A stretch of DNA of 64,000 nucleotides, from contig NZ_JAJLQY010000007.1 of NCBI RefSeq assembly GCF_020991275.1, positions 310,001 through 374,000 of the forward strand. Reading direction: 5' to 3'. Every line of letters starts with the position of its first letter. The stretch's first letter is position 1. Source of the stretch: Actinocorallia sp. API 0066. Its GTDB lineage: Bacteria > Actinomycetota > Actinomycetes > Streptosporangiales > Streptosporangiaceae. This document shows, in pieces, positions 21,914-44,714 of this stretch. The position numbers were made by a program, and so were the translations under genes. A model generated the notes under the pieces. That model made no database searches and was not told where the DNA came from. It saw only the letters and a program-made list of their open reading frames with translations.

Positions 21914-23092
21914 TTAGAGGGTGTTGAGGGTGGTTTGGAGGTCGGTCCAGAGGTCTTCGGGGTGTTCGATGCCTACGGCCAGGCGGATGGTGCCTTCGGT
22001 GAAGCCGGCGGCGGTGAGGGCGGCGGGGGAGTACATGCGGTGGGAGGTGCTGGCGGGGTGGATGGCGAGGGTTTTGGCTTCGCCAAGGGAGGCGGTGAGG
22101 GAGATGAGGCGGGTGGACTCGATGAAGCGTTGGCCGGCGGGGCGGGCGCCCTTGAGGTCGAAGGCGAGGACGCCGCCTGCGCCGCCGGTGAACTGGTGGT
22201 GGGCGAGCTTGTGGTCGGGGTGGGTGGGCAGGCCCGGGTAGGAGACGGACGCGACGGCCGGGTGGGAGGAGAGGCGTTCGGCCAGGTACTGGGCGTTGGC
22301 GCTGTGCCGCTCCACGCGCAGGCCCAGGGTCGTCAGGCCGCGCAGGAGGAGGAAGGCGGCGAAGGGGTCGAGGGTGGGGCCGGTCTCGATAACCTCCTCC
22401 CAGATGCGGCGCTCGTCCTCGGGCGAGGAGGTGACGATGACGCCCGCCAGCACGTCACCGTGCCCGCACAGGTACTTGGTCGCCGAGTGCACGACGATGT
22501 CAGCGCCGAACTCCAGGGGGCGGCACAGCAGCGGCGTCGCGAAGGTGTTGTCCACGACCTTCTTCACGGTGGCCGGGACGGCGGCGAACAGCGCGCCGAA
22601 GTCGGGGATCCGCGTCGTCGGGTTGGCGATGGTCTCCAGGTAGAGGATCTTCGTTGTCGGGCGGACGGCCGCGGCCACCTCCGCCGGGTCGTCGCCGGAG
22701 ACGTACGTCACCTCGACGCCCCATTTGTCCTTGAGCGTCTCCAGGGTGCCGTAGGTGCCGCCGTACAGGCAGGTCTGCGCGACGACGTGGTCGCCGGAGC
22801 GCAGCAGGCCCTTCAGCACCGCGTTGATGGCGGCCATCCCGGACGCCGTCGCCAGGGCGCCCGTCCCGCCCTCCAGATCGGCGAGGGCGAGTTCGAAGGA
22901 CCGGACCGTGGGGTTGCCGAGGCGGCTGTAGAACGGGGGCTGTCCGGGGCCGTCGAACGCCGCCGCCATGCCGTCCGCGCTGTCGAACGCGAACAGGTGG
23001 CTCTGGTAGATCGGCATGCCCAGCGGGGTGCTGCCGGTGGGGGTGACGATCGGCGTGTGGATGGCTCGGGTCTCGGGACGAAGCTCGCTCAT
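21914..23092 (-). CDS. Cystathionine gamma-lyase / methionine gamma-lyase-family PLP enzyme
   Basis: An approximately 392-residue PLP enzyme of the Cys/Met metabolism family. Key features: YSRLGNPTVRSFE, the cofactor-stacking LYGGTYGTL segment, DNTFATPLL, and the PLP-binding lysine in VVHSATKYLCGHGD. Family members cleave or form C-S bonds in cystathionine, methionine or O-acylhomoserine; the exact reaction cannot be assigned from motifs. Start: ATG 23092 (MSELRPETRAIH) is the family-like N-terminus; a TTG at 23125 extends it without support. Cytoplasmic, probably a single-gene unit. Confidence 0.87.
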   Translation of the reverse strand: MSELRPETRAIHTPIVTPTGSTPLGMPIYQSHLFAFDSADGMAAAFDGPGQPPFYSRLGNPTVRSFELALADLEGGTGALATASGMAAINAVLKGLLRSGDHVVAQTCLYGGTYGTLETLKDKWGVEVTYVSGDDPAEVAAAVRPTTKILYLETIANPTTRIPDFGALFAAVPATVKKVVDNTFATPLLCRPLEFGADIVVHSATKYLCGHGDVLAGVIVTSSPEDERRIWEEVIETGPTLDPFAAFLLLRGLTTLGLRVERHSANAQYLAERLSSHPAVASVSYPGLPTHPDHKLAHHQFTGGAGGVLAFDLKGARPAGQRFIESTRLISLTASLGEAKTLAIHPASTSHRMYSPAALTAAGFTEGTIRLAVGIEHPEDLWTDLQTTLNTL

Positions 23093-36136: not shown

Positions 36137-37579
36137 TTACGCGGTCAACGCCGGGAAGGTTTGCACGGCGGCGTCGTAGCGCGCGGTAAACTCCTCGTCC
36201 TCGGTACTGGTGCGCAGCGGGGCGAGGGTGCGCAGGACGCGGGCCGAGCGGAGCGAGCCAGCGGGCGCGGACAGGACCTGGAGCCCCTGCTTGACGGCTC
36301 CGGTGACGTCGCCTGCGGAGCAGAGGGCACCGGCGAGGCAGGCTCGGTACACGGCGAGGTCACGAGGTGAGCGCCGGTCGTCTGCCAGGACGTCGAGGTA
36401 GAGGTTGACGGACCGGTCTGAGCCGCCGAGGGCTTCTGCGCCGAGGGCTTGGTAGCCGGTGACCTCAGAGTGGGTCACGAATCGCGTCCAGGGTGGGTGG
36501 TCGCCTTGTTCGCGGTCGAGTTCGCGGCGGGCGAGGCCGATGGCTTGGCCGAAGGCGATGCGATCGCCGAGGCGGGCGTGTGCGAGGGCTTGGCGGAGCG
36601 CGATGAGGGCGTGCAGGGAGGATGACGCCTCGTGGCGGGCGGCACGGGCGGCCCGGTCGGCGAACCGCAGTGCCGCACGGGCGTGCCCCCGCTGTCCGTC
36701 CACGGCGGCGAGGTGGGTGGACTGCTGAGCCAGGTTGACGGCGACATGGATCTGGATGGAGGGGACGTCCGAGGCGGCGGCGAGCTGGTCGGCCTGTTCG
36801 TAGAGGCCGCGGGCCAGCCCCTGGTTGTCAGCGTCGTAGGCGAGCCAGCCGCTGACAATAGCGAGGTCAGCGGTGACGGTGAGGAGTTCGCGGCCTGTCC
36901 GCTCGTTGTAGTCGCTCTCGTCGAGCATCGCGCGGGCGCGCCGGTAGATGGAGATCGACTCGCCGAGGACTCCCGCGCCTCCGGCGGAGGCGTCGGTGCC
37001 ACGCAACCGGTCCAGGCAGGTGTGCAGGTAGCGCAGATGGCCGCGGTCCACACGCGGCGGCGGAGGCAGCACGGCGGCCACGGTGGTGCCGAGGGCGGCC
37101 TGGCCGAAGTGACGTCGCTTCACGTCTTCGTCCTCCCCTCCCCAGAACATCCGGGCGTCGTCTTCATCCTGCCCGCTTGGGGTGGCATCGGCACGTCCCA
37201 GGACCAGGGGGATGAGCGTTTCCCGGGGCATGCCCAGGGCGTCGGCGAGGTTCAGGATCTCGCTGATGTCGTAGGCGGTACGCCGCTCACCGCGCTCGAC
37301 CTTGGTGACGACGGACTGGGACCAGCCGACGACCTCGCCGAACTCCAGTTGGGACATCGCGCACGCGCCCCGGACGATGGCGACCACGGCGGCCATGTCC
37401 GCGCGGGCGAGCGCTCCGCGCAGCGGAGCCGAGTCCCACAGCCAGGTCGGTGCCGGGCCTTGCCGGTGGGCGCGGGCGGCGGTGAGGCAGACGGCGCATA
37501 GCGGGTCCGGGTTGTAGCGCGACAGCTGCGTGTACCGGCAAGCCGGGCAGAGCCTCCGCCCCTTGACCGTGCCGCCCAT
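36137..37579 (-). CDS. XRE-family regulator with N-terminal zinc ribbon and helical-repeat domain
   Basis: A 480-residue regulator. Cys11/Cys14 (CPAC) and Cys28/Cys31 (CAVC) form a likely zinc ribbon. Residues about 60-130 are a Cro/C1-type helix-turn-helix (MSQLEFGEVVGWSQSVVTKV, ERGERRTAYDISEIL). From about 180 on, Ala-rich helical hairpins look like TPR repeats (LAQQSTHLAAVDGQRGHARA). It diverges from the seven-gene operon at 37786, with a perfect 21-bp palindrome in the gap, and is its likely regulator. ATG 37579 is supported by GGAGGG seven bases upstream. Ligand unknown. Confidence 0.85.
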   Translation of the reverse strand: MGGTVKGRRLCPACRYTQLSRYNPDPLCAVCLTAARAHRQGPAPTWLWDSAPLRGALARADMAAVVAIVRGACAMSQLEFGEVVGWSQSVVTKVERGERRTAYDISEILNLADALGMPRETLIPLVLGRADATPSGQDEDDARMFWGGEDEDVKRRHFGQAALGTTVAAVLPPPPRVDRGHLRYLHTCLDRLRGTDASAGGAGVLGESISIYRRARAMLDESDYNERTGRELLTVTADLAIVSGWLAYDADNQGLARGLYEQADQLAAASDVPSIQIHVAVNLAQQSTHLAAVDGQRGHARAALRFADRAARAARHEASSSLHALIALRQALAHARLGDRIAFGQAIGLARRELDREQGDHPPWTRFVTHSEVTGYQALGAEALGGSDRSVNLYLDVLADDRRSPRDLAVYRACLAGALCSAGDVTGAVKQGLQVLSAPAGSLRSARVLRTLAPLRTSTEDEEFTARYDAAVQTFPALTA

Positions 37580-37679
37580 CTGCCACCCTCCGCAAGCACG
37601 TTTCCCTTTGACGCACGGGTCCGGTCCAGAGGTCTGATGATCAGCCCCGAACCACACCGTAACCGCAATCCCACCTGGC

Positions 37680-37700
37680 GTTAGGCCAATGTGGCCTAAC
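37680..37700. promoter_or_regulatory. Perfect 21-bp palindrome, candidate operator of the 37.8-44.7 kb operon
   Basis: GTTAGGCCA-ATG-TGGCCTAAC: two perfect 9-bp arms with a three-base centre. It lies in the 206-bp gap between the regulator start (37579, minus) and the glycosyltransferase start (37786, plus), and is the strongest symmetric site in the window. A TATGAC hexamer at 37716-37721 could be the -10 of the operon promoter, which would place the palindrome near -35. Binding by the XRE protein is inferred. Confidence 0.65.
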
Positions 37701-37785
37701 CGTTGGTTACCGCCCTATGACGGATCGGCGTTGGGTGTCGGGACGGGAACCGCGAACCTCCTGGAGGAGAAGGAGGTGAAGCGTG

Positions 37786-38787
37786 ATGGCCGACGAACGA
37801 TCGACGGTGCGGGCTGGCCGTCCGATGACGTCCGTGGTGGTCAGTGTCCGTGGGTGGAACCGCGAGCGGTTGCCGGAGCTGTTGGGGGCGCTTGGTGGAC
37901 AGACGGTCGCGGCAGAGCGGATGGAAGTGGTGGTCGTGGACAACGACCCGCCTCCTGCCGGGCGCGTGGGCGCGATTGTCCACTCCCGGCCGTGGCCGTT
38001 CGCGGTGCGGGTGCTCCGGGAGCCGCGAGCCGGGTTGAGCGCGGGCAAGAACCGGGGGATCGCGGCGGCGCGCGGCGAGTACGTGGCGTTCGTCGATCCG
38101 GACGTTCTGCCCGATCCGGAATGGCTGGCGGCGCTGACCGACGCGATCGAGACGGAGGGCGTTTTCGCGGTCGGCGGCCGGACGACGGCCGTCTACCCGG
38201 AGGGCGTCCGGTTCCTGTCGCCGGTGCTGGCCGAGTGCCACGGTGCGGTCCGGTGGCCGTCGCACCGGGCCCCGGCGACGTGGCCGTTCTGGGTGACGGG
38301 CTGCAACCTGGTCTTCCATCGGGAGACGGCTCTGAAGATCGGCCTTCTGCGCACCGACCTGGGACGGCGCGGACGGTGGATGGGCGACTGCGAGGACCTG
38401 GAGTTCCTCGACCGGGCACGGCAGCGCGGGCACACCGTCCTCGTCGAGCCGTCCGCGCACGCCGTCCACCCGATCTACCGGGACGAGACCACGCTCGCCT
38501 ACTACCTGCGGCAGGGCGTCGGCCACGGCGTCAGCCTGGCCCGGATGCACACCAGCGTCCACGTGGAGCCCGCCGCGATCCGGGCCGGGCGGCGGGACGT
38601 GGTGGACGCGCTCGGCCGACTGATCGGCGCGTGGGGCTTCACCAGCCCCACCGACGCCGTCGCCGGGCTGCGCGACCTCGTCCGCATCGCCGCCTACCGG
38701 GCTGAGAAGACACGGCTGCGCCTGACCGGTCGCCGCCTGCTGCCCACCCGACCGATGACCGACCCGACCGAGGAGAAGCACCCGTGA
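37786..38787 (+). CDS. GT2-family glycosyltransferase
   Basis: An approximately 333-residue GT-A glycosyltransferase: VVVSVRGWNRERLPELLGAL at the N-terminus, VVVDNDPPP, SAGKNRGIAAARGEYVAFVD followed by PDV (the DxD-equivalent), WVTGCNLVFHRETALKIG, and the acceptor-loop acid MGDCEDLEFLDRA. It transfers a sugar from an NDP-sugar; donor and acceptor unknown. ATG 37786 has AGGAGG nine bases upstream; GTG 37783 is also possible. First gene of a seven-gene operon, joined to the next by GTGA. Confidence 0.87.
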   Translation: MADERSTVRAGRPMTSVVVSVRGWNRERLPELLGALGGQTVAAERMEVVVVDNDPPPAGRVGAIVHSRPWPFAVRVLREPRAGLSAGKNRGIAAARGEYVAFVDPDVLPDPEWLAALTDAIETEGVFAVGGRTTAVYPEGVRFLSPVLAECHGAVRWPSHRAPATWPFWVTGCNLVFHRETALKIGLLRTDLGRRGRWMGDCEDLEFLDRARQRGHTVLVEPSAHAVHPIYRDETTLAYYLRQGVGHGVSLARMHTSVHVEPAAIRAGRRDVVDALGRLIGAWGFTSPTDAVAGLRDLVRIAAYRAEKTRLRLTGRRLLPTRPMTDPTEEKHP

Positions 38788-40013
38788 TCGTCTCCGCTGT
38801 GAACGGATTCCCCCAGCCCGAGCTGGAGCTGGTCGAGCGGAAAGGTGCCGGCCATCCCGACACGCTCGCCGACGGTGTCGCCGAAGCGGTCTCCCGTGCC
38901 TACAGCGCTTACTGCCTCGACCACTTCGGCGCGATCCTGCACCACAACACCGACAAGACAGCGCTGCTAGGCGGCGCGGCGGAGGTCGCGTTCGGCGGAG
39001 GGCGGCTGACGGCCCCGATCCAGGTGCTGGTGAACGGTCGGCTCACCCCGGCCCTCGGCGACCACCGCATCCCCGTCGAGGAGCTCGTGGACGACGCCGT
39101 CCGGGAGTTCCTCGGCCACGCCCTGCCGCTGCTGGACGTCGGGCGGGACGTCGAGGTGCGACGGCGGATCAGCACCGCGTCCAGCCCCGGGGCCGTCCAC
39201 GGCGAGACCGACAGGCAGCGGGCGGGCCGCCGGTTCTGGTTCGCGCCCCGCTCGATCGACGACCTGGCCGAGCGGCACCGGATGTTCGCCAACGACACCA
39301 GCGCCGGGGTCGGCTACGCGCCCCTCGGCGTGGCCGAACGGTTCGTGATCGGGGTCGAGCGGCGGCTGACGTCGCCGGGCTTCGTGGAGGCGCACCCGTA
39401 CTTCGGGACTGACGTGAAGCTCATGGCCGCCCGCGTCGGCGACCGGGTCAGCCTGACCTGCTGCGTCCCGCAGATCGCCGCGCACACGCCCGACCTGGAG
39501 ACGTACATCGAGCGCCGCGTCCTGGTGCGCCGCGCCGTCGCCGAGCTGGCGGCGGAGCTGGCCCCCGGCCACCGGGTGACGGTCGCCGTGAACACCCGCG
39601 ACGACGAGGCGCGGCGCGAGCTGTACCTGACGGTGACGGGGTCGAGCATCGAGTCCGGGGACGAGGGCGTCGTGGGCCGCGGCAACCGAGCCAACGGGCT
39701 CATCTCGATGTTCCGGCCCTGGTCGGCGGAGGGCGTGTCGGGCAAGAACCCCGTCTACCACGTCGGGAAGCTCTACAACCTCGCGGCGCAGCGGGCCGCC
39801 GAGCACCTGCACCACCTCACCGGACGGTCCTGGGTGCTCGCGCTGGTCTCCCAGGCCGGGCGCGACCTTGAGGACCCCTGGCAGGTGCTCGCGCAGGCGT
39901 CGGGCACCGGCGCCGTGGACACCGCGCTGGTGCGCGAGGTCGTCTCCGGCGTCATGGGCGAGCTGGACGTGCTGCGTGCGGAGCTGCTCGCCGGGAAGCT
40001 GGCCACCGCATGA
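38784..40013 (+). CDS. Archaeal-type S-adenosylmethionine synthetase
   Basis: A 409-residue methionine adenosyltransferase of the archaeal family (PF01941-type), not the bacterial MetK family. Motifs: ERKGAGHPDTLADGVAEAV (18-36), HHNTDK (53-58), FGGG (70-73), ANDTSAGVGYAPL (169-181), GTDVKLM (208-214), GRGNRANGLI (298-307) and GKNPVYHVGK (320-329). It makes SAM from ATP and methionine in the cytoplasm. It is rare in bacteria and sits inside a biosynthetic operon, suggesting a dedicated SAM supply or a SAM-like analogue. GTG start with AGGAGAA upstream, overlapping the GT2 stop. Confidence 0.9.
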   Translation: MIVSAVNGFPQPELELVERKGAGHPDTLADGVAEAVSRAYSAYCLDHFGAILHHNTDKTALLGGAAEVAFGGGRLTAPIQVLVNGRLTPALGDHRIPVEELVDDAVREFLGHALPLLDVGRDVEVRRRISTASSPGAVHGETDRQRAGRRFWFAPRSIDDLAERHRMFANDTSAGVGYAPLGVAERFVIGVERRLTSPGFVEAHPYFGTDVKLMAARVGDRVSLTCCVPQIAAHTPDLETYIERRVLVRRAVAELAAELAPGHRVTVAVNTRDDEARRELYLTVTGSSIESGDEGVVGRGNRANGLISMFRPWSAEGVSGKNPVYHVGKLYNLAAQRAAEHLHHLTGRSWVLALVSQAGRDLEDPWQVLAQASGTGAVDTALVREVVSGVMGELDVLRAELLAGKLATA

Positions 40014-40858
40014 GCGCGTTCACGCCGTGCCTCAACCCGGCGACGCTCTCCGGCCTCGCTCTTCCCGACTTCCTGGAAGCGGCGGCGTCGGCTGGCTTCA
40101 CCTCCGTGGAGGTGCCGGTGCAGCAGGTCGTCGCGCATGGCCCCGGCCGCGTCGCCGACCTGCTCGCGGGGCTGGGGCTGAGCGTGGCGGCGGCGTCGGG
40201 CCTCCTGCCCGCCGGGCCCGTGCTGCCGCATCCGGTCCTCGTCGAGGACTACGCGGACGCGCTGACGGGCTTGCCCGAACGGCTTGAGGCGATGCGGACG
40301 ATCGGTTGCCCGGTCGCCACGATCGTCGTCAACCCGCGCTCCCTTTTGGCGCGGGACGCCGCGCTTTCGACCGCCGCGGCACGGTTGCGCGCCCTGGCCC
40401 GGGTCGCGGGGGAGTACGGCGTGACGGTGGCGGCCGAGGCGGTCGGCGTCCAACGCGGCCTGCCCGCCGAACTCGACGGGCCGCATCCGGTCGTCACGAC
40501 GCTGCCCGAGCTCGCCGGGCTGCTGGAGCGCACGCCCGGTGTCGTCGCGTGCGTCGACTCCTTTCACTGGGCGGCCACCGGCGCTGATCCGGTCGCGGTC
40601 GCGGGGCTCACGATCGGGCACGTCCAGATCGCCGACACGCCGCCTGGGCCCCGGCACCTGTGGAGCGACGGGCAGCGGCTGTTCCCCGGTGACGGCGGTC
40701 TGCCCTGGATCGAGTTCGCGGGAGCGCTCGCCGTCGCGGGATATCGGGGTCCGCTTTCGGTCGAGCTGTTCAACCCCGCCTTGCGGGCGCTGTCCGAGGA
40801 CGAGATCTGTCGGCGTGCCCTCCACGGCACCCGGACGTGCTGGAAGGAGACGTCATGA
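40010..40858 (+). CDS. Sugar-phosphate isomerase/epimerase-like TIM-barrel protein
   Basis: A 282-residue protein of the xylose-isomerase-like AP-endonuclease 2 superfamily (relatives include IolE/IolI): AAASAGFTSVEVPVQQVV, VAAEAVGVQRGLPAELDG (metal-type Glu), VVACVDSFHWAATG (Asp/His), IGHVQIADTPPG (His-x-Gln-x-x-Asp) and LSVELFNPAL (Glu). This pattern of acids and His at strand ends fits divalent-metal isomerases, epimerases or dehydratases of sugars and inositols. Substrate unknown. It overlaps its neighbours by ATGA at both ends, between the SAM synthetase and an inositol-dehydrogenase-like gene, which suggests a cyclitol or keto-sugar intermediate. Confidence 0.85.
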   Translation: MSAFTPCLNPATLSGLALPDFLEAAASAGFTSVEVPVQQVVAHGPGRVADLLAGLGLSVAAASGLLPAGPVLPHPVLVEDYADALTGLPERLEAMRTIGCPVATIVVNPRSLLARDAALSTAAARLRALARVAGEYGVTVAAEAVGVQRGLPAELDGPHPVVTTLPELAGLLERTPGVVACVDSFHWAATGADPVAVAGLTIGHVQIADTPPGPRHLWSDGQRLFPGDGGLPWIEFAGALAVAGYRGPLSVELFNPALRALSEDEICRRALHGTRTCWKETS

Positions 40859-41811
40859 GGCCCCACAGGATCGCGGTGGCCGGTTGCGGGGCGGCGGCGT
40901 TCGGCCTGCACCTGCCCGTGCTCACCGCCTCGCCCGCCTGGACGGTGACGGCGGTCCTCGACCGGCACACCGCGCGCGCCCACGCGGCGGCCGGGCGGTT
41001 CGGCGTCCCGGCCGTCGCGCACACCCTGCCCGAGCTGCTGGACGGCGCGGACATGATCGCCGTGACGACGGGCGTCCACCACACCCTCATCGAGGAGGCC
41101 GTCAAAGCGGGCACGCACGTGTTCACCGAAAAGCCCGTCACCCTGGACCCCGCGTACTCCGCACGACTGCACGCGCAGGCCAGGGACGCGGGGGTACTGC
41201 TGGAGGTCGGGACGGTCCGCCTCTACGACCCGGCCGTGCGCGCGCTGCGAGACAGACTGCTTTCGCCGAACGGAGGCTGGCTCGTCAAGGCGGATGGTGT
41301 GGACGCCGCCGCCCGCGCTCACATCCTCCCTGACGGGTTCGCGACCTACACCTTCGCCGACGACCCTCCCCAACCCGTTCCCGACGGCCTGGAGCCGCAC
41401 CAGGAGGAGGCGTTGAAGGTGCTTCTTTGGGAGGGATACCACCAGCTCACGGCGCTTCTCGCCGTCGTTGGGAGCGTCTACCCGGCCGCGTGCGCGATCG
41501 GTCCCGACCGGGCCGTCCACGCCACCGCGACCGACGACCACGGGCAGCCCTACACGATCGTCGTCGCCCGGCCCGGGGGCGGCGTGTTCGTTGAGTCGTT
41601 CCACCTGACCGGTGACGACTCCGCCGCCGACCTGTCCTGGCCCGCGCCGTACAGCGGACCGCCCGACCCCTTCGCCGCGATGTGGGGCGCGATCGCCGAC
41701 GCGCTCGACAGCGGTGTTCCCACGGGCAGCGCCGCGTTCGCCCAGCGGGTCGAAGAACTCGCCCTCGGCCTCGCCCGCACCGCCACATCTCTCGGGAGCA
41801 CTCATGGCTGA
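40855..41811 (+). CDS. Gfo/Idh/MocA-family NAD(P)-dependent oxidoreductase
   Basis: A 318-residue dehydrogenase: Rossmann motif VAGCGAAAFGLHL, DRHTARAHAAAGRFGVP, and the nicotinamide-side EKPVTL motif (THVFTEKPVTLDP). The C-terminal substrate domain starts at about 120. Family members oxidise or reduce sugars and inositols, for example myo-inositol 2-dehydrogenase. Substrate unknown. Coupled by ATGA to the isomerase gene, consistent with sequential steps on one carbohydrate; its stop is overlapped eight bases by the kinase start. Confidence 0.86.
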   Translation: MRPHRIAVAGCGAAAFGLHLPVLTASPAWTVTAVLDRHTARAHAAAGRFGVPAVAHTLPELLDGADMIAVTTGVHHTLIEEAVKAGTHVFTEKPVTLDPAYSARLHAQARDAGVLLEVGTVRLYDPAVRALRDRLLSPNGGWLVKADGVDAAARAHILPDGFATYTFADDPPQPVPDGLEPHQEEALKVLLWEGYHQLTALLAVVGSVYPAACAIGPDRAVHATATDDHGQPYTIVVARPGGGVFVESFHLTGDDSAADLSWPAPYSGPPDPFAAMWGAIADALDSGVPTGSAAFAQRVEELALGLARTATSLGSTHG

Positions 41812-42646
41812 CCCCGTCATCGCCGCCTTCGACGGGCCGCCGGGGGCGGGGAAGACGTCCCTGATCGCCCGTCTCGCCACCGCGCACGGGGACGCGGCGG
41901 TGTGGTTCGCCGAGCCCAACCACCTCCTGGCGACGCCGCGTACGGACGACGGCGTGTCCCGCTGGTTCCTCGACCACGAGGCCGCCAAGGCACGGAGCAT
42001 CCGTGCGCTGGCCGACGACCCGGCTACCGGACTCATCATGGCGGACCGCAACCATCTCGGAGCCTTGGCCTACTGCTACGCCCACGACGGAGGAACCGTC
42101 CCGAGGGGCACCCTCCCCTTCACCGAGGCGCTGGCGTACTACATGCGTCACGTCCTCCGGCAGCAGCCCGAACGGCTCAGGACCGTCGTCCTCCTGGTCA
42201 GCCCGTCCGTCAGCCTCGCCCGACGTGGCGGAACCCCCGAACGCGCCCTGTGGCGACAATGGTACGACCCCGCCCTACTCGACCGCCTGCACGCCTTCTA
42301 CCGCGACATCGCGCCTGGCCTGTGCCCCAACCGCCCGCTCGTCATCGACACCGACGCGCTCACCCTGGACCAGGTCCACGCGCACGTGGCGGCCCACCTC
42401 GCCGCCGCGGGACTGCCGGACCCCCGGGCGTGGCCGCCGCTCCCCGCCCGGCCGCTGCTCGGCGGCGTGTTCACCGACGCCTACGCGCGGCTGGGCGGCC
42501 TGGAGACACTCGGGCATCCCGTCACGGGGCCGCTGGCGTGGCGCGGCGGCCTCGTCCAGATCTGCCAGCTCGCCACCCTGCACCGGGGCCCAGACGGGCC
42601 CGCCGGGCTGTGGCGTCCGGACGCGCCCCTGGAGACGCTGCGATGA
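41804..42646 (+). CDS. P-loop kinase of the thymidylate-kinase-like class
   Basis: A 280-residue protein with Walker A GPPGAGKTS (residues 11-19), DRNH after a hydrophobic strand (GLIMADRNHLGALAY) in the position of the nucleoside-kinase DRS/DRY motif, and LVSPSVSLARRGG as the arginine lid. A C-terminal extension of about 100 residues (PLLGGVFTDAYARLGGLETL onward) has no known match. It probably phosphorylates a small molecule made by the operon; the acceptor is unknown. ATG 41804 is supported by CGGGAG upstream. Confidence 0.8.
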   Translation: MADPVIAAFDGPPGAGKTSLIARLATAHGDAAVWFAEPNHLLATPRTDDGVSRWFLDHEAAKARSIRALADDPATGLIMADRNHLGALAYCYAHDGGTVPRGTLPFTEALAYYMRHVLRQQPERLRTVVLLVSPSVSLARRGGTPERALWRQWYDPALLDRLHAFYRDIAPGLCPNRPLVIDTDALTLDQVHAHVAAHLAAAGLPDPRAWPPLPARPLLGGVFTDAYARLGGLETLGHPVTGPLAWRGGLVQICQLATLHRGPDGPAGLWRPDAPLETLR

Positions 42647-44247
42647 CCGCCGTCGTCGGCATCAACCTCGGCCACGACGGCGGCGCGGCGCTCGTCACCT
42701 CGGACGGTGTCGTCGCGATCGGCGAGGAGCGGCTCAACCGGGCCCGGTACAGCCCCGGTTGGGAATCGGCCTTGCTGTACTGCCTACGTGCCGCCGGGCT
42801 CACCCTGGACGGCATCGACCTCGTCGCGGTCAGCGGCCTGGGCCACACGCTCCCCGATCCTGAGCGGGTCGGGCTGCATCACCTCGCACCGGTGCCCGTC
42901 CTTGCCGTGGACCACCACCTCGCCCACGCCTACACCGCGTACTGCCTTGGCCCGGCCGAGGAGGCGACCGTCCTGGTCGTCGACGGCGCGGCCAACGGGG
43001 GCGACACCGAGACGTACTATGCCGCGACGCCCGACGGCATTCACCGTCTCGGGGGCAACCCGCCGCACCGGCCACGTGCCGCCGGGATCGGCGCCACCTA
43101 CGAGGCGTTCACCAACTGGCTCGGCTGGCACGAGCAGGAAGCCGGGAAAACGATGGCGCTCGCCGCCTACGGCGACCCGCACGCCTACCCCGAGCCGCTG
43201 TTCGAGGTCGCCGGGAGCGCCGTGCGGGGACGGTTGACCGCGACGCACGGCCGTGGCGTCGCCGAGTTGTCGCTGGCCACAGGGTGGGACTTCGGGCCTT
43301 TCGGCAGCCGGGGCGGTGATCCGCGCGGCATCGACGCCGCCGCCTATCTCCAGGCGCAGACCGAGGCGGCGCTGTGCTCGCTCGTCCTGGGCGTCGTCGC
43401 CGAGACGGGGCTGCCCGACCTGTGCTTCGCCGGGGGCGTCGCGCTGAACTGTGTGGCCGCCGACCGCGTCCGTCGGCTGCCGGGCGTCGCCTCCTACTTC
43501 GCACCGCCGCCCGCGAGCGACCGCGGCCAGGCGCTCGGCTGTGCCCTGTGGGCCTGGCACCGCCTCACCGGCGAGCTGCCCCGCCGTCCCCTGGCCGCCG
43601 ACTCCTTCGGCCGTTCTTACCGCGACGCCGAGATCGAGGCGGCGTTGCGCCGCGATCCGCGTTCCGGCCTTGTCGAACGCCGCCATGCCCCGTTCGTGTG
43701 GCGGCGGGAAAGCTCCATCGCCGTCACGGCGGCCCAACTCGTCGCTGACGGGAGGCTCGTCGGCTGGCTCCAGGGCGGCAGCGAGCTCGGGCCGCGCGCG
43801 CTCGGGCGGCGCAGCATCCTCGCCGACCCGCGCGGTCGTGCCGCCGCCGACGCGCTCAACACCCGCGTCAAACACCGCGAACCCTTCCGGCCGTTCGCGC
43901 CCGCCGTCCTGGCCGACCACGCCGCCGACTGGTTCGACCTCGACGTCCCCTCACCCTTCATGCTCCTCGCCCCACCCGCCCTCCCCTACCTGTCCGCCGG
44001 CATCTCCGGCGTCCTGCACATCGACGGCACCGCCCGCGTCCAGACCGTCGAGCATGACCAGCCGCTTGCCGCCGTCCTCGCTGAGTTCCAGCGGCTCACC
44101 GGCGTCCCGCTCGTCCTCAACACCAGCTTCAACGACCGTGAACCCATCGTAGAAACGCCCGCCCACGCGCTGGCCACCTTTCAGGACACCGACCTGGACG
44201 CGTTGTGCCTGGGCCCCTACCTCGTGGAGAAGCCGCACCTACCATGA
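42643..44247 (+). CDS. O-carbamoyltransferase of the NodU/CmcH/TobZ family
   Basis: A 534-residue carbamoyltransferase with the family motifs GINLGHDGGAAL (6-17), DHHLAHAYTAY (90-100), EAGKTMALAAYG (166-177), GGVALNC (264-270), and in the C-terminal YrdC-like domain GSELGPRALGRRSILADPRG, HREPFRPFAPAV and NTSFNDREPIVETPAHA. The reaction uses carbamoyl phosphate and ATP to carbamoylate a hydroxyl group, usually on a sugar of a natural product (nodulation factor, tobramycin, cephamycin). This is the strongest sign that the operon makes a carbamoylated product. ATGA overlaps at both ends. Confidence 0.92.
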   Translation: MTAVVGINLGHDGGAALVTSDGVVAIGEERLNRARYSPGWESALLYCLRAAGLTLDGIDLVAVSGLGHTLPDPERVGLHHLAPVPVLAVDHHLAHAYTAYCLGPAEEATVLVVDGAANGGDTETYYAATPDGIHRLGGNPPHRPRAAGIGATYEAFTNWLGWHEQEAGKTMALAAYGDPHAYPEPLFEVAGSAVRGRLTATHGRGVAELSLATGWDFGPFGSRGGDPRGIDAAAYLQAQTEAALCSLVLGVVAETGLPDLCFAGGVALNCVAADRVRRLPGVASYFAPPPASDRGQALGCALWAWHRLTGELPRRPLAADSFGRSYRDAEIEAALRRDPRSGLVERRHAPFVWRRESSIAVTAAQLVADGRLVGWLQGGSELGPRALGRRSILADPRGRAAADALNTRVKHREPFRPFAPAVLADHAADWFDLDVPSPFMLLAPPALPYLSAGISGVLHIDGTARVQTVEHDQPLAAVLAEFQRLTGVPLVLNTSFNDREPIVETPAHALATFQDTDLDALCLGPYLVEKPHLP

Positions 44248-44714
44248 GTCCCATGATCACGCCGCCCACTCGGGAAGCCGCCCGCGCCATCCTCCTGGAC
44301 CCCGACAACCGGGTCCTGCTGCTGCGCTACGAGGAGAACGGCGGCTTCTGGGCCACGCCCGGAGGCTCCCTGGAACCCGGCGAAACCCACAAGGCAGCCC
44401 TCCTCCGCGAACTCCGGGAGGAACTCGGCATCACCACGCTCGAACCGGGCCCCGAACTCGCCACCCGCACCACGACCCACCCCGTCGGTGGCCACCTCAC
44501 CCGGCAGGTCGAACGCTACTTCGTCGCCCGCACCACCCCCGCCGACCTCCACCCGGAACACGCCACCCACCCCGACAACATCCAAACCCACCACTGGTGG
44601 ACCATCCCCGAACTGGTCACCTCCACCGAGACCATCTACCCCGGCGAGCTCGCCGACCTCATCCACACGTACCTCCACACCGGCCCCCCAAGCCAGCCCG
44701 CGCCCCTCACCTGA
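44244..44714 (+). CDS. NUDIX hydrolase
   Basis: A 156-residue NUDIX protein with a complete box: GGSLEPGETHKAALLRELRE followed by ELGI (the GX5EX7REUXEEXGU pattern, with one conservative change). It hydrolyses a nucleoside diphosphate linked to X; in an operon with a glycosyltransferase and kinase it may act on an NDP-sugar or clean up a side product. It overlaps the carbamoyltransferase stop (ATGA). The Pro-rich C-terminus (GPPSQPAPLT) is poorly conserved. Last gene of the operon. Confidence 0.85.
   Translation: MSPMITPPTREAARAILLDPDNRVLLLRYEENGGFWATPGGSLEPGETHKAALLRELREELGITTLEPGPELATRTTTHPVGGHLTRQVERYFVARTTPADLHPEHATHPDNIQTHHWWTIPELVTSTETIYPGELADLIHTYLHTGPPSQPAPLT

Follow-up and report, generated by a model that had tools for sequence, protein, structure and literature searches.

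A conserved seven-gene block with an archaeal-type methionine adenosyltransferase in Actinocorallia sp. API 0066, possibly for an adenosine-derived small molecule

The locus analysed here raises the question of why an actinobacterium would carry a methionine adenosyltransferase (MAT) of the archaeal type in an operon with a glycosyltransferase, a carbamoyltransferase and a kinase. It is found in a stretch of 64,000 nucleotides of Actinocorallia sp. API 0066 (contig NZ_JAJLQY010000007.1, positions 310,001 to 374,000), which is referred to as the window and from whose first letter all positions are counted. The host genome, of 7.0 Mb in 44 contigs, has its single MetK match (PF02773), a normal MetK, on another contig, and a second gene of family PF01941 on contig C3. 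The answer favoured here is a tentative one, short of probable: the block would be a self-contained, horizontally moving cassette that makes a small molecule derived from adenosine, and its MAT would adenosylate an amino acid resembling methionine on the way to a carbamoylated, glycosylated nucleoside.

A seven-gene block conserved as a unit

The block occupies positions 37786 to 44714 of the plus strand, and its successive junctions are overlaps of 4, 4, 4, 8, 4 and 4 bases. The first gene encodes a family 2 glycosyltransferase (GT2; 37786..38787, PF00535), followed by an operon-type MAT (38784..40013, PF01941) with a changed Ile346 position and an extended gating loop, a xylose-isomerase-like TIM barrel of the sugar isomerase/epimerase kind (40010..40858, PF01261, AP_endonuc_2), a Gfo/Idh/MocA dehydrogenase (40855..41811, PF01408), a P-loop kinase (41804..42646, AAA_28) with a conserved C-terminal extension and, in its predicted model, a thymidylate/deoxynucleoside-kinase-like fold, a predicted O-carbamoyltransferase of the NodU/TobZ type (42643..44247, PF02543 and PF16861, Carbam_trans_N and _C), and a NUDIX hydrolase (44244..44714, PF00293) that closes the block. 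These families were assigned by Pfam profiles above cut-off, and both the matches and the starts and stops agree with a preliminary description of this DNA, which had listed seven overlapping one-strand genes of the same families. Its remark that the operon lacks a methyltransferase is correct for the block, in which Pfam detects neither a methyltransferase nor any other gene using S-adenosylmethionine (SAM).

A search for the conserved block, which that description had set beforehand as a test, recovered all seven genes in identical order and strand in 13 genomes, which span at least four families. Besides the window, the carriers are a member of the same genus (L059), Streptosporangium canum (L061), a Micromonosporaceae metagenome-assembled genome (L063), Streptomyces sp. 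CB01373 (L065), Frankia canadensis (L066), the genomes G477, G499, G542, G642 and G752, and linear plasmids of Streptomyces sp. NBC_01334 and NBC_00015; L061 duplicates the record L080, as L066 does L108, and each pair is counted as one genome. A second Gfo/Idh/MocA gene is inserted ahead of the kinase in three loci (Pfam was run on one of them), and this gene and the regulators are all that recurs beyond the seven genes in the compared block loci. No recurrent SAM-using gene was found in the flanks of these loci, several of which are short and whose genes were called from open reading frames (ORFs) on the basis of GC content at third codon positions.

In a sample of 200 family genomes, the block-type MAT (at least 67% identity) is present in seven, and the carbamoyltransferase (E up to 1e-110) and the kinase (E up to 1e-8) occur in exactly those seven; three draws of 200 were taken as identical here, the handles shown being in agreement. 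The class sample contains the block in 4 of 394 genomes. Chance synteny is ruled out by the same-order block in 13 genomes together with the co-occurrence in the same seven of 200. Since one of the two sampled same-genus relatives is devoid of the block, and copies are located on plasmids, it is patchy in distribution and probably mobile. Purifying selection acts on all seven genes when the window is compared with L059, with Nei-Gojobori ratios of nonsynonymous to synonymous substitution (dN/dS) of 0.24 for GT2, 0.24 for the MAT, 0.25 for the TIM barrel, 0.30 for Gfo/Idh/MocA, 0.42 for the kinase, 0.14 for the carbamoyltransferase and 0.52 for the NUDIX hydrolase.

The operon-type methionine adenosyltransferase

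The MAT had been described as archaeal in type and distinct from MetK, and this is borne out by its match to PF01941, the archaeal family, with 357.4 bits against a curated cut-off of 27. This match and the separate MetK elsewhere in the genome rule out a vertically inherited MetK. In a maximum-likelihood tree of 68 PF01941 proteins, a check proposed with the block search, a branch (100/98) sets 40 operon-type MATs apart, and 16 block MATs are grouped with one other row (100/100). Position 346 and the gating loop were left out of the tree, the short L058 and the engineered Methanocaldococcus jannaschii chain having been dropped beforehand, and the program warned of long branches meeting and of an outgroup not confined to a single side of a branch. 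The clade, composed of mostly operon-borne MATs, stands apart from the archaeal reference enzymes. Nested in the block clade beside S. canum (99/97) is the MAT of a seryl-tRNA synthetase (SerRS) operon from Actinomadura pelletieri, which means that one MAT type is used in both operon settings.

In the excerpts of PMC3853416 and PMC8727953, with Pyrococcus furiosus (Pf) numbering, His30 is the catalytic residue, Asp198 and Asp280 bind the ribose and amino groups, Tyr268 stacks on the adenine, and His59, Asn61 and Asn158 bind the carboxylate. All seven residues are kept in the SerRS type and in the 14 block rows of an alignment that was made without L001 and L028 and includes two rows of one genome (L066 and L108). 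Position 346, equivalent to Ile351 of M. jannaschii, is Ile in each of the 26 reference rows of natural proteins (24 bacterial loci, assumed to be housekeeping, and two archaeal chains), Ala in two of the 14 block rows, including the window, and Ser in the other 12. Among the sister operons described below, Thr is found in six of seven SerRS-type rows and Asn in all seven rows of the glutamyl-tRNA synthetase (GluRS) type that have the residue, and other operon-type rows show His, Lys, Asn or Thr; in the operon-type clade as a whole, Ile is absent from all 34 actinobacterial rows with a residue at this position. Plasmid MATs from Cupriavidus and Methylocystis, which branch outside this clade, keep Ile346. 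The gating loop of the block MATs exceeds that of the archaeal chains by 18–21 residues, and every block row shows a WFxPR motif in it. Together, these alignment patterns suggest a MAT with an intact catalytic core whose amino-acid side has been re-tooled.

The other enzymes of the block

The remaining enzymes keep the signature motifs of their families. The DPD and ED motifs of GT2 are present in the examined block loci, except for the first motif in L082, which is cut by a contig end. The TIM barrel holds its DxFHW and SVELFNP motifs in all 13 loci with an intact gene, and the Gfo/Idh/MocA protein its EKP motif in all 13 loci that hold the gene. Both the HHLxH (an HxxxH metal motif) and GPRALG sequences of the carbamoyltransferase, as well as the Nudix box of the NUDIX hydrolase, are conserved in the 12 loci with the respective gene.

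The kinase keeps its P-loop in the block loci, and its sequence retrieves only a cytidylate kinase match (E 0.0022). Its predicted model (mean pLDDT 73) aligns, through residues 5–205, with the thymidylate kinase 4s35_B (Z 19.1, root-mean-square deviation 2.9 over 177 residues), and thymidylate and deoxynucleoside kinases lead the Foldseek matches. Fold matches cover residues 1–206 only, and the C-terminal extension (42452–42646), which is conserved and holds a GG..LG.P.T motif, has no family match in Pfam.

Sister operons with related MATs

MATs of the same family have been found in operons of different composition. In type (a), Pfam identifies in L105 (9017-15219) a MAT, an APH-like kinase, a histidine phosphatase, a SerRS, a GT4 glycosyltransferase and an unassigned gene, and the MAT, the SerRS and several of the others recur in L062, L084, L086, L102, L104, L105 and L106. 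Type (b) comprises L060, L069, L071, L072, L074, L075, L076 and L107; a GluRS-related gene accompanies the MAT in all eight loci of this branch (Pfam was run on L107), a sulfatase-fold gene adjoins in most of them, and L060 and L076 include radical SAM and further genes. The window genome has a type (b) MAT of its own (L060; contig C3, 83747-84817), in which His59 and Asn61 are replaced by Asn and Trp, and whose neighbours are genes for a radical SAM protein, an FkbM methyltransferase, a weak Methyltransf_25 match and PhyH, with a second gltX nearby.

Type (c), in L085, encodes a TIM barrel, two APH kinases, an SDR and a class-III aminotransferase. Type (d) is an operon on plasmid pPCS148 of the Rickettsiales endosymbiont Candidatus Megaera polyxenophila (L115, 4980-16434), where the MAT is annotated together with a TIM barrel, a NUDIX protein, four oxidoreductases, a thymidylate kinase and a bisphosphate nucleotidase; its Gfo/Idh/MocA protein and its kinase match those of the window at 27% and 26%, respectively. 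Two Streptomyces plasmids hold type (e), with TIM barrel, Gfo/Idh/MocA, MAT, two unassigned genes and an F420-ligase-like gene, while type (f), on a plasmid of Parageobacillus caldoxylosilyticus (L120, 5856-16173), combines the MAT with a myo-inositol-1-phosphate synthase, an HAD protein, an SDR and a SurE nucleotidase. In L120 an aminotransferase-like stretch can also be seen by eye, in a frame with stops. Of the 27 plasmid records with a MAT match, eight were examined.

Duplicates of SerRS and gltX go with types (a) and (b). SerRS is duplicated in all six SerRS-operon genomes searched (seven loci are known) versus none of 19 others, and gltX in all six GluRS-operon genomes searched (eight loci are known) versus one of 19 others. 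In each of these six SerRS-operon genomes, it is the type (a) operon that holds the second SerRS.

Proposed pathway and alternative explanations

In the pathway proposed for the block, the MAT would catalyse the committing step, moving adenosyl from ATP onto the sulfur or another nucleophile of a methionine-like amino acid, perhaps bulkier or more polar than methionine, and would not be an enzyme for bulk SAM. The sugar part would then be remodelled by oxidation and isomerisation through the Gfo/Idh/MocA protein and the TIM barrel, phosphorylated by the nucleoside/nucleotide-type kinase, carbamoylated by the NodU-type enzyme and glycosylated by GT2, and the NUDIX hydrolase would remove a nucleotide or pyrophosphate group. 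The MAT activity and substrate, the step order and the product belong to the proposal. An adenosine-derived nucleoside would be the simplest product because the block encodes an ATP-handling MAT, a nucleotide-kinase-like enzyme and a NUDIX hydrolase, and related operons hold nucleotide phosphatases. The preliminary description had left two roles for the MAT, SAM supply or action on a modified substrate; the changed Ile and the longer loop lend some support to the latter, and the former retains part of its likelihood. A broader extension, which we regard as doubtful, is that the PF01941 proteins of the operon type do not make SAM at all and act as adenosylating "core synthases", each attaching adenosyl from ATP to a different amino acid other than methionine or to another nucleophile. 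Actinobacteria, a thermophilic bacillus and a Rickettsiales endosymbiont would then share an unrecognised class of adenosyl natural products, some of which would poison SerRS or GluRS while the operon copy is protected.

A number of observations weigh against the adenosine cassette. According to the excerpts of PMC3853416 and PMC8727953, the only residue named for the methionine side chain is Leu145 of the Thermococcus kodakarensis MAT (Leu142 in Pf), and Asp141 (Pf) contacts the adenine amino group. In all 14 block rows the first column holds Leu or Ile and the second Ser or Thr, in an alignment that is unsure beside the insert; the hydrophobic methionine contact at position 142 may survive, and the ATP side may not be fully unchanged. 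The loop insert could itself re-create a pocket for methionine. As for Ile346, its part in such a pocket is taken from the engineered M. jannaschii enzyme. Because of positions 141/142 and this source for the role of Ile346, confidence in both the cassette and the core synthases was lowered, and that in SAM supply raised. Among the reference rows, whose bacterial loci are assumed to be housekeeping, L027 and L067 branch beside the operon-type clade on long branches, and the AlphaFold MAT model (six block-clade rows and the A. pelletieri row) was set aside with a mean pLDDT of 52. The kinase model also matches shikimate kinase by fold, at a lower rank, and constraint is weakest on the NUDIX hydrolase and the kinase (dN/dS 0.52 and 0.42). 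As regards conservation, GT2 is truncated at a contig end in G499 (L082) and matches only from residue 70 on in G642 (L109), a 14th genome (G541) has the block genes split over two contigs, and Streptomyces viridiviolaceus (L064, a 17.3 kb locus) retains just GT2, the MAT and a TIM fragment of a broken block. Pfam finds no aminoacyl-tRNA synthetase gene within the window's block, and a search of 10 block genomes gives a single SerRS in each and a single gltX in all but the window genome, whose second gltX belongs to its other MAT operon; one SerRS-operon genome (G525) has a second gltX too. Finally, one kind of sister operon combines the MAT with radical SAM and methyltransferase genes, which use SAM.

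In the broken copy of L064 (11191-15535), the match to L065 stops inside the TIM gene, and a transposase-like ORF was seen by eye about 3 kb beyond the break.

The sister operons with SAM-using genes and the retention of the catalytic and amino-acid-backbone residues, along with Leu/Ile at position 142, fit a dedicated SAM supply, in which the MAT would make ordinary SAM, perhaps free of feedback control, for a step of the same pathway that uses SAM and is encoded elsewhere, and the rest of the block a carbamoylated sugar. We consider this somewhat unlikely, given that the block holds no SAM-using gene and the compared flanks no recurrent one, that Ile346 is replaced throughout the operon-type clade, and that the genome already has MetK. 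A phosphorylated, carbamoylated sugar or inositol-like cyclitol, the product first suggested for this locus, to which the MAT would add an adenosyl group or for which it would serve a side step, accounts for the similarity of the TIM barrel and the Gfo/Idh/MocA protein to inositol and sugar enzymes and for the myo-inositol-1-phosphate synthase of the Parageobacillus operon. It is nevertheless unlikely in our judgement, as thymidylate and deoxynucleoside kinases rank first among the structural matches to the kinase model (although the substrate does not follow from the fold), the block-type MAT is always accompanied by the other genes in the family sample, and the kinase fold, the sister aminoacyl-tRNA synthetases and the nucleotide phosphatases point more to a nucleoside.

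A variant of the adenosine cassette gives its product a named target, the product being an inhibitor that mimics an aminoacyl adenylate. The SerRS and gltX duplicates that follow the SerRS- and GluRS-operon MATs agree with it, and albomycin and ascamycin would be precedents (excerpts of PMC9032320 and PMC12945691), but the block has no such duplicate and the synthetases may just supply aminoacyl-tRNA or adenylate, which makes this variant quite improbable for the block.

Relation to known systems

The window MAT belongs to the same family as the archaeal MATs of M. jannaschii, P. furiosus, Sulfolobus solfataricus and T. kodakarensis and shares with them the catalytic His, the ribose Asp, the adenine-stacking Tyr and the residues that bind the amino and carboxylate groups of Met. 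Block MATs differ from these enzymes in the replacement of Ile346 by Ala or Ser, in a gating loop longer by 18–21 residues with WFxPR, and in being operon-borne beside a normal MetK. An M. jannaschii MAT engineered with L147A/I351A reportedly accepts bulky S-alkyl methionines. The PDB chain sequences of 7p83 and 7p82 show an Ile/Ala difference at the Ile351 position, and the Ala of the engineered enzyme (7p82) is natural in the window MAT, which in contrast to it is a natural protein with a long loop insert, most of its block relatives having Ser there.

The window carbamoyltransferase shares both Pfam domains and the key motifs with the O-carbamoyltransferases NodU, TobZ, NovN and GdmN, and scores 183–194 bits with each of the solved members (novobiocin carbamoyltransferase, TobZ and GdmN), none being clearly closer. 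As reported in the excerpts of PMC9032320 and PMC12945691, the albomycin and ascamycin clusters include an extra aminoacyl-tRNA synthetase for seryl or alanyl supply and self-resistance, and the former also includes a carbamoyltransferase and a deoxycytidine-kinase homologue (PMC9032320). The likeness to these clusters lies in the duplicated SerRS or GluRS of the sister MAT operons, whereas the block itself has none; and, unlike the block, the albomycin genes listed in the excerpts of PMC9032320 include no mention of a MAT.

The preliminary description knew of no pathway with this gene set, and none came to light in the open-licence PMC full texts, where neither the gene set nor PF01941 enzymes in natural product clusters were found described; this covers the literature and not a cluster database. 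Each enzyme family is known, and the combination and the residue change are undescribed in the literature searched. If the proposal is true, natural product pathways would have taken over the first step of SAM biosynthesis several times to form a bond, each time altering the active site on its amino-acid side and preserving the catalytic core. Such proteins would be natural enzymes for SAM analogues, which are obtained today through engineering, and PF01941 with a residue other than Ile at 346 would serve as a search handle for uncharacterised actinobacterial metabolites. With the SerRS and GluRS duplicates that recur in the sister operons, the target hypothesis can be tested directly.

Neighbouring genes and a candidate operator

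Downstream of the block, Pfam identifies a PucR-type regulator and a family-5 solute-binding protein, for which tblastn gives no match above 50 bits in the compared block loci. About 15 kb upstream of the operon, positions 21914-23092 of the minus strand encode what appears by eye to be a transsulfuration-type enzyme dependent on pyridoxal phosphate, with no sign of linkage.

The divergent gene next to the operon (36137..37657, minus strand; likelier start 37579) encodes a regulator of the XRE/NsdA family. It matches the HTH_31 and NsdA_fam_reg models and has two CxxC pairs in an N-terminal ribbon (CxxC...CxxC), in accordance with the divergent zinc-ribbon XRE regulator described previously. 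Of the 14 block loci with upstream DNA covered, 12 have a divergent gene of the regulator type there, none being called in L063 and L081. Between the regulator and the operon there is a perfect 9-3-9 inverted repeat, GTTAGGCCA-ATG-TGGCCTAAC (37680..37700), which is a candidate operator. A script scan of 13 other upstream regions for perfect copies of it returned none. By eye, an imperfect version is present at the equivalent place in the same-genus locus L059.

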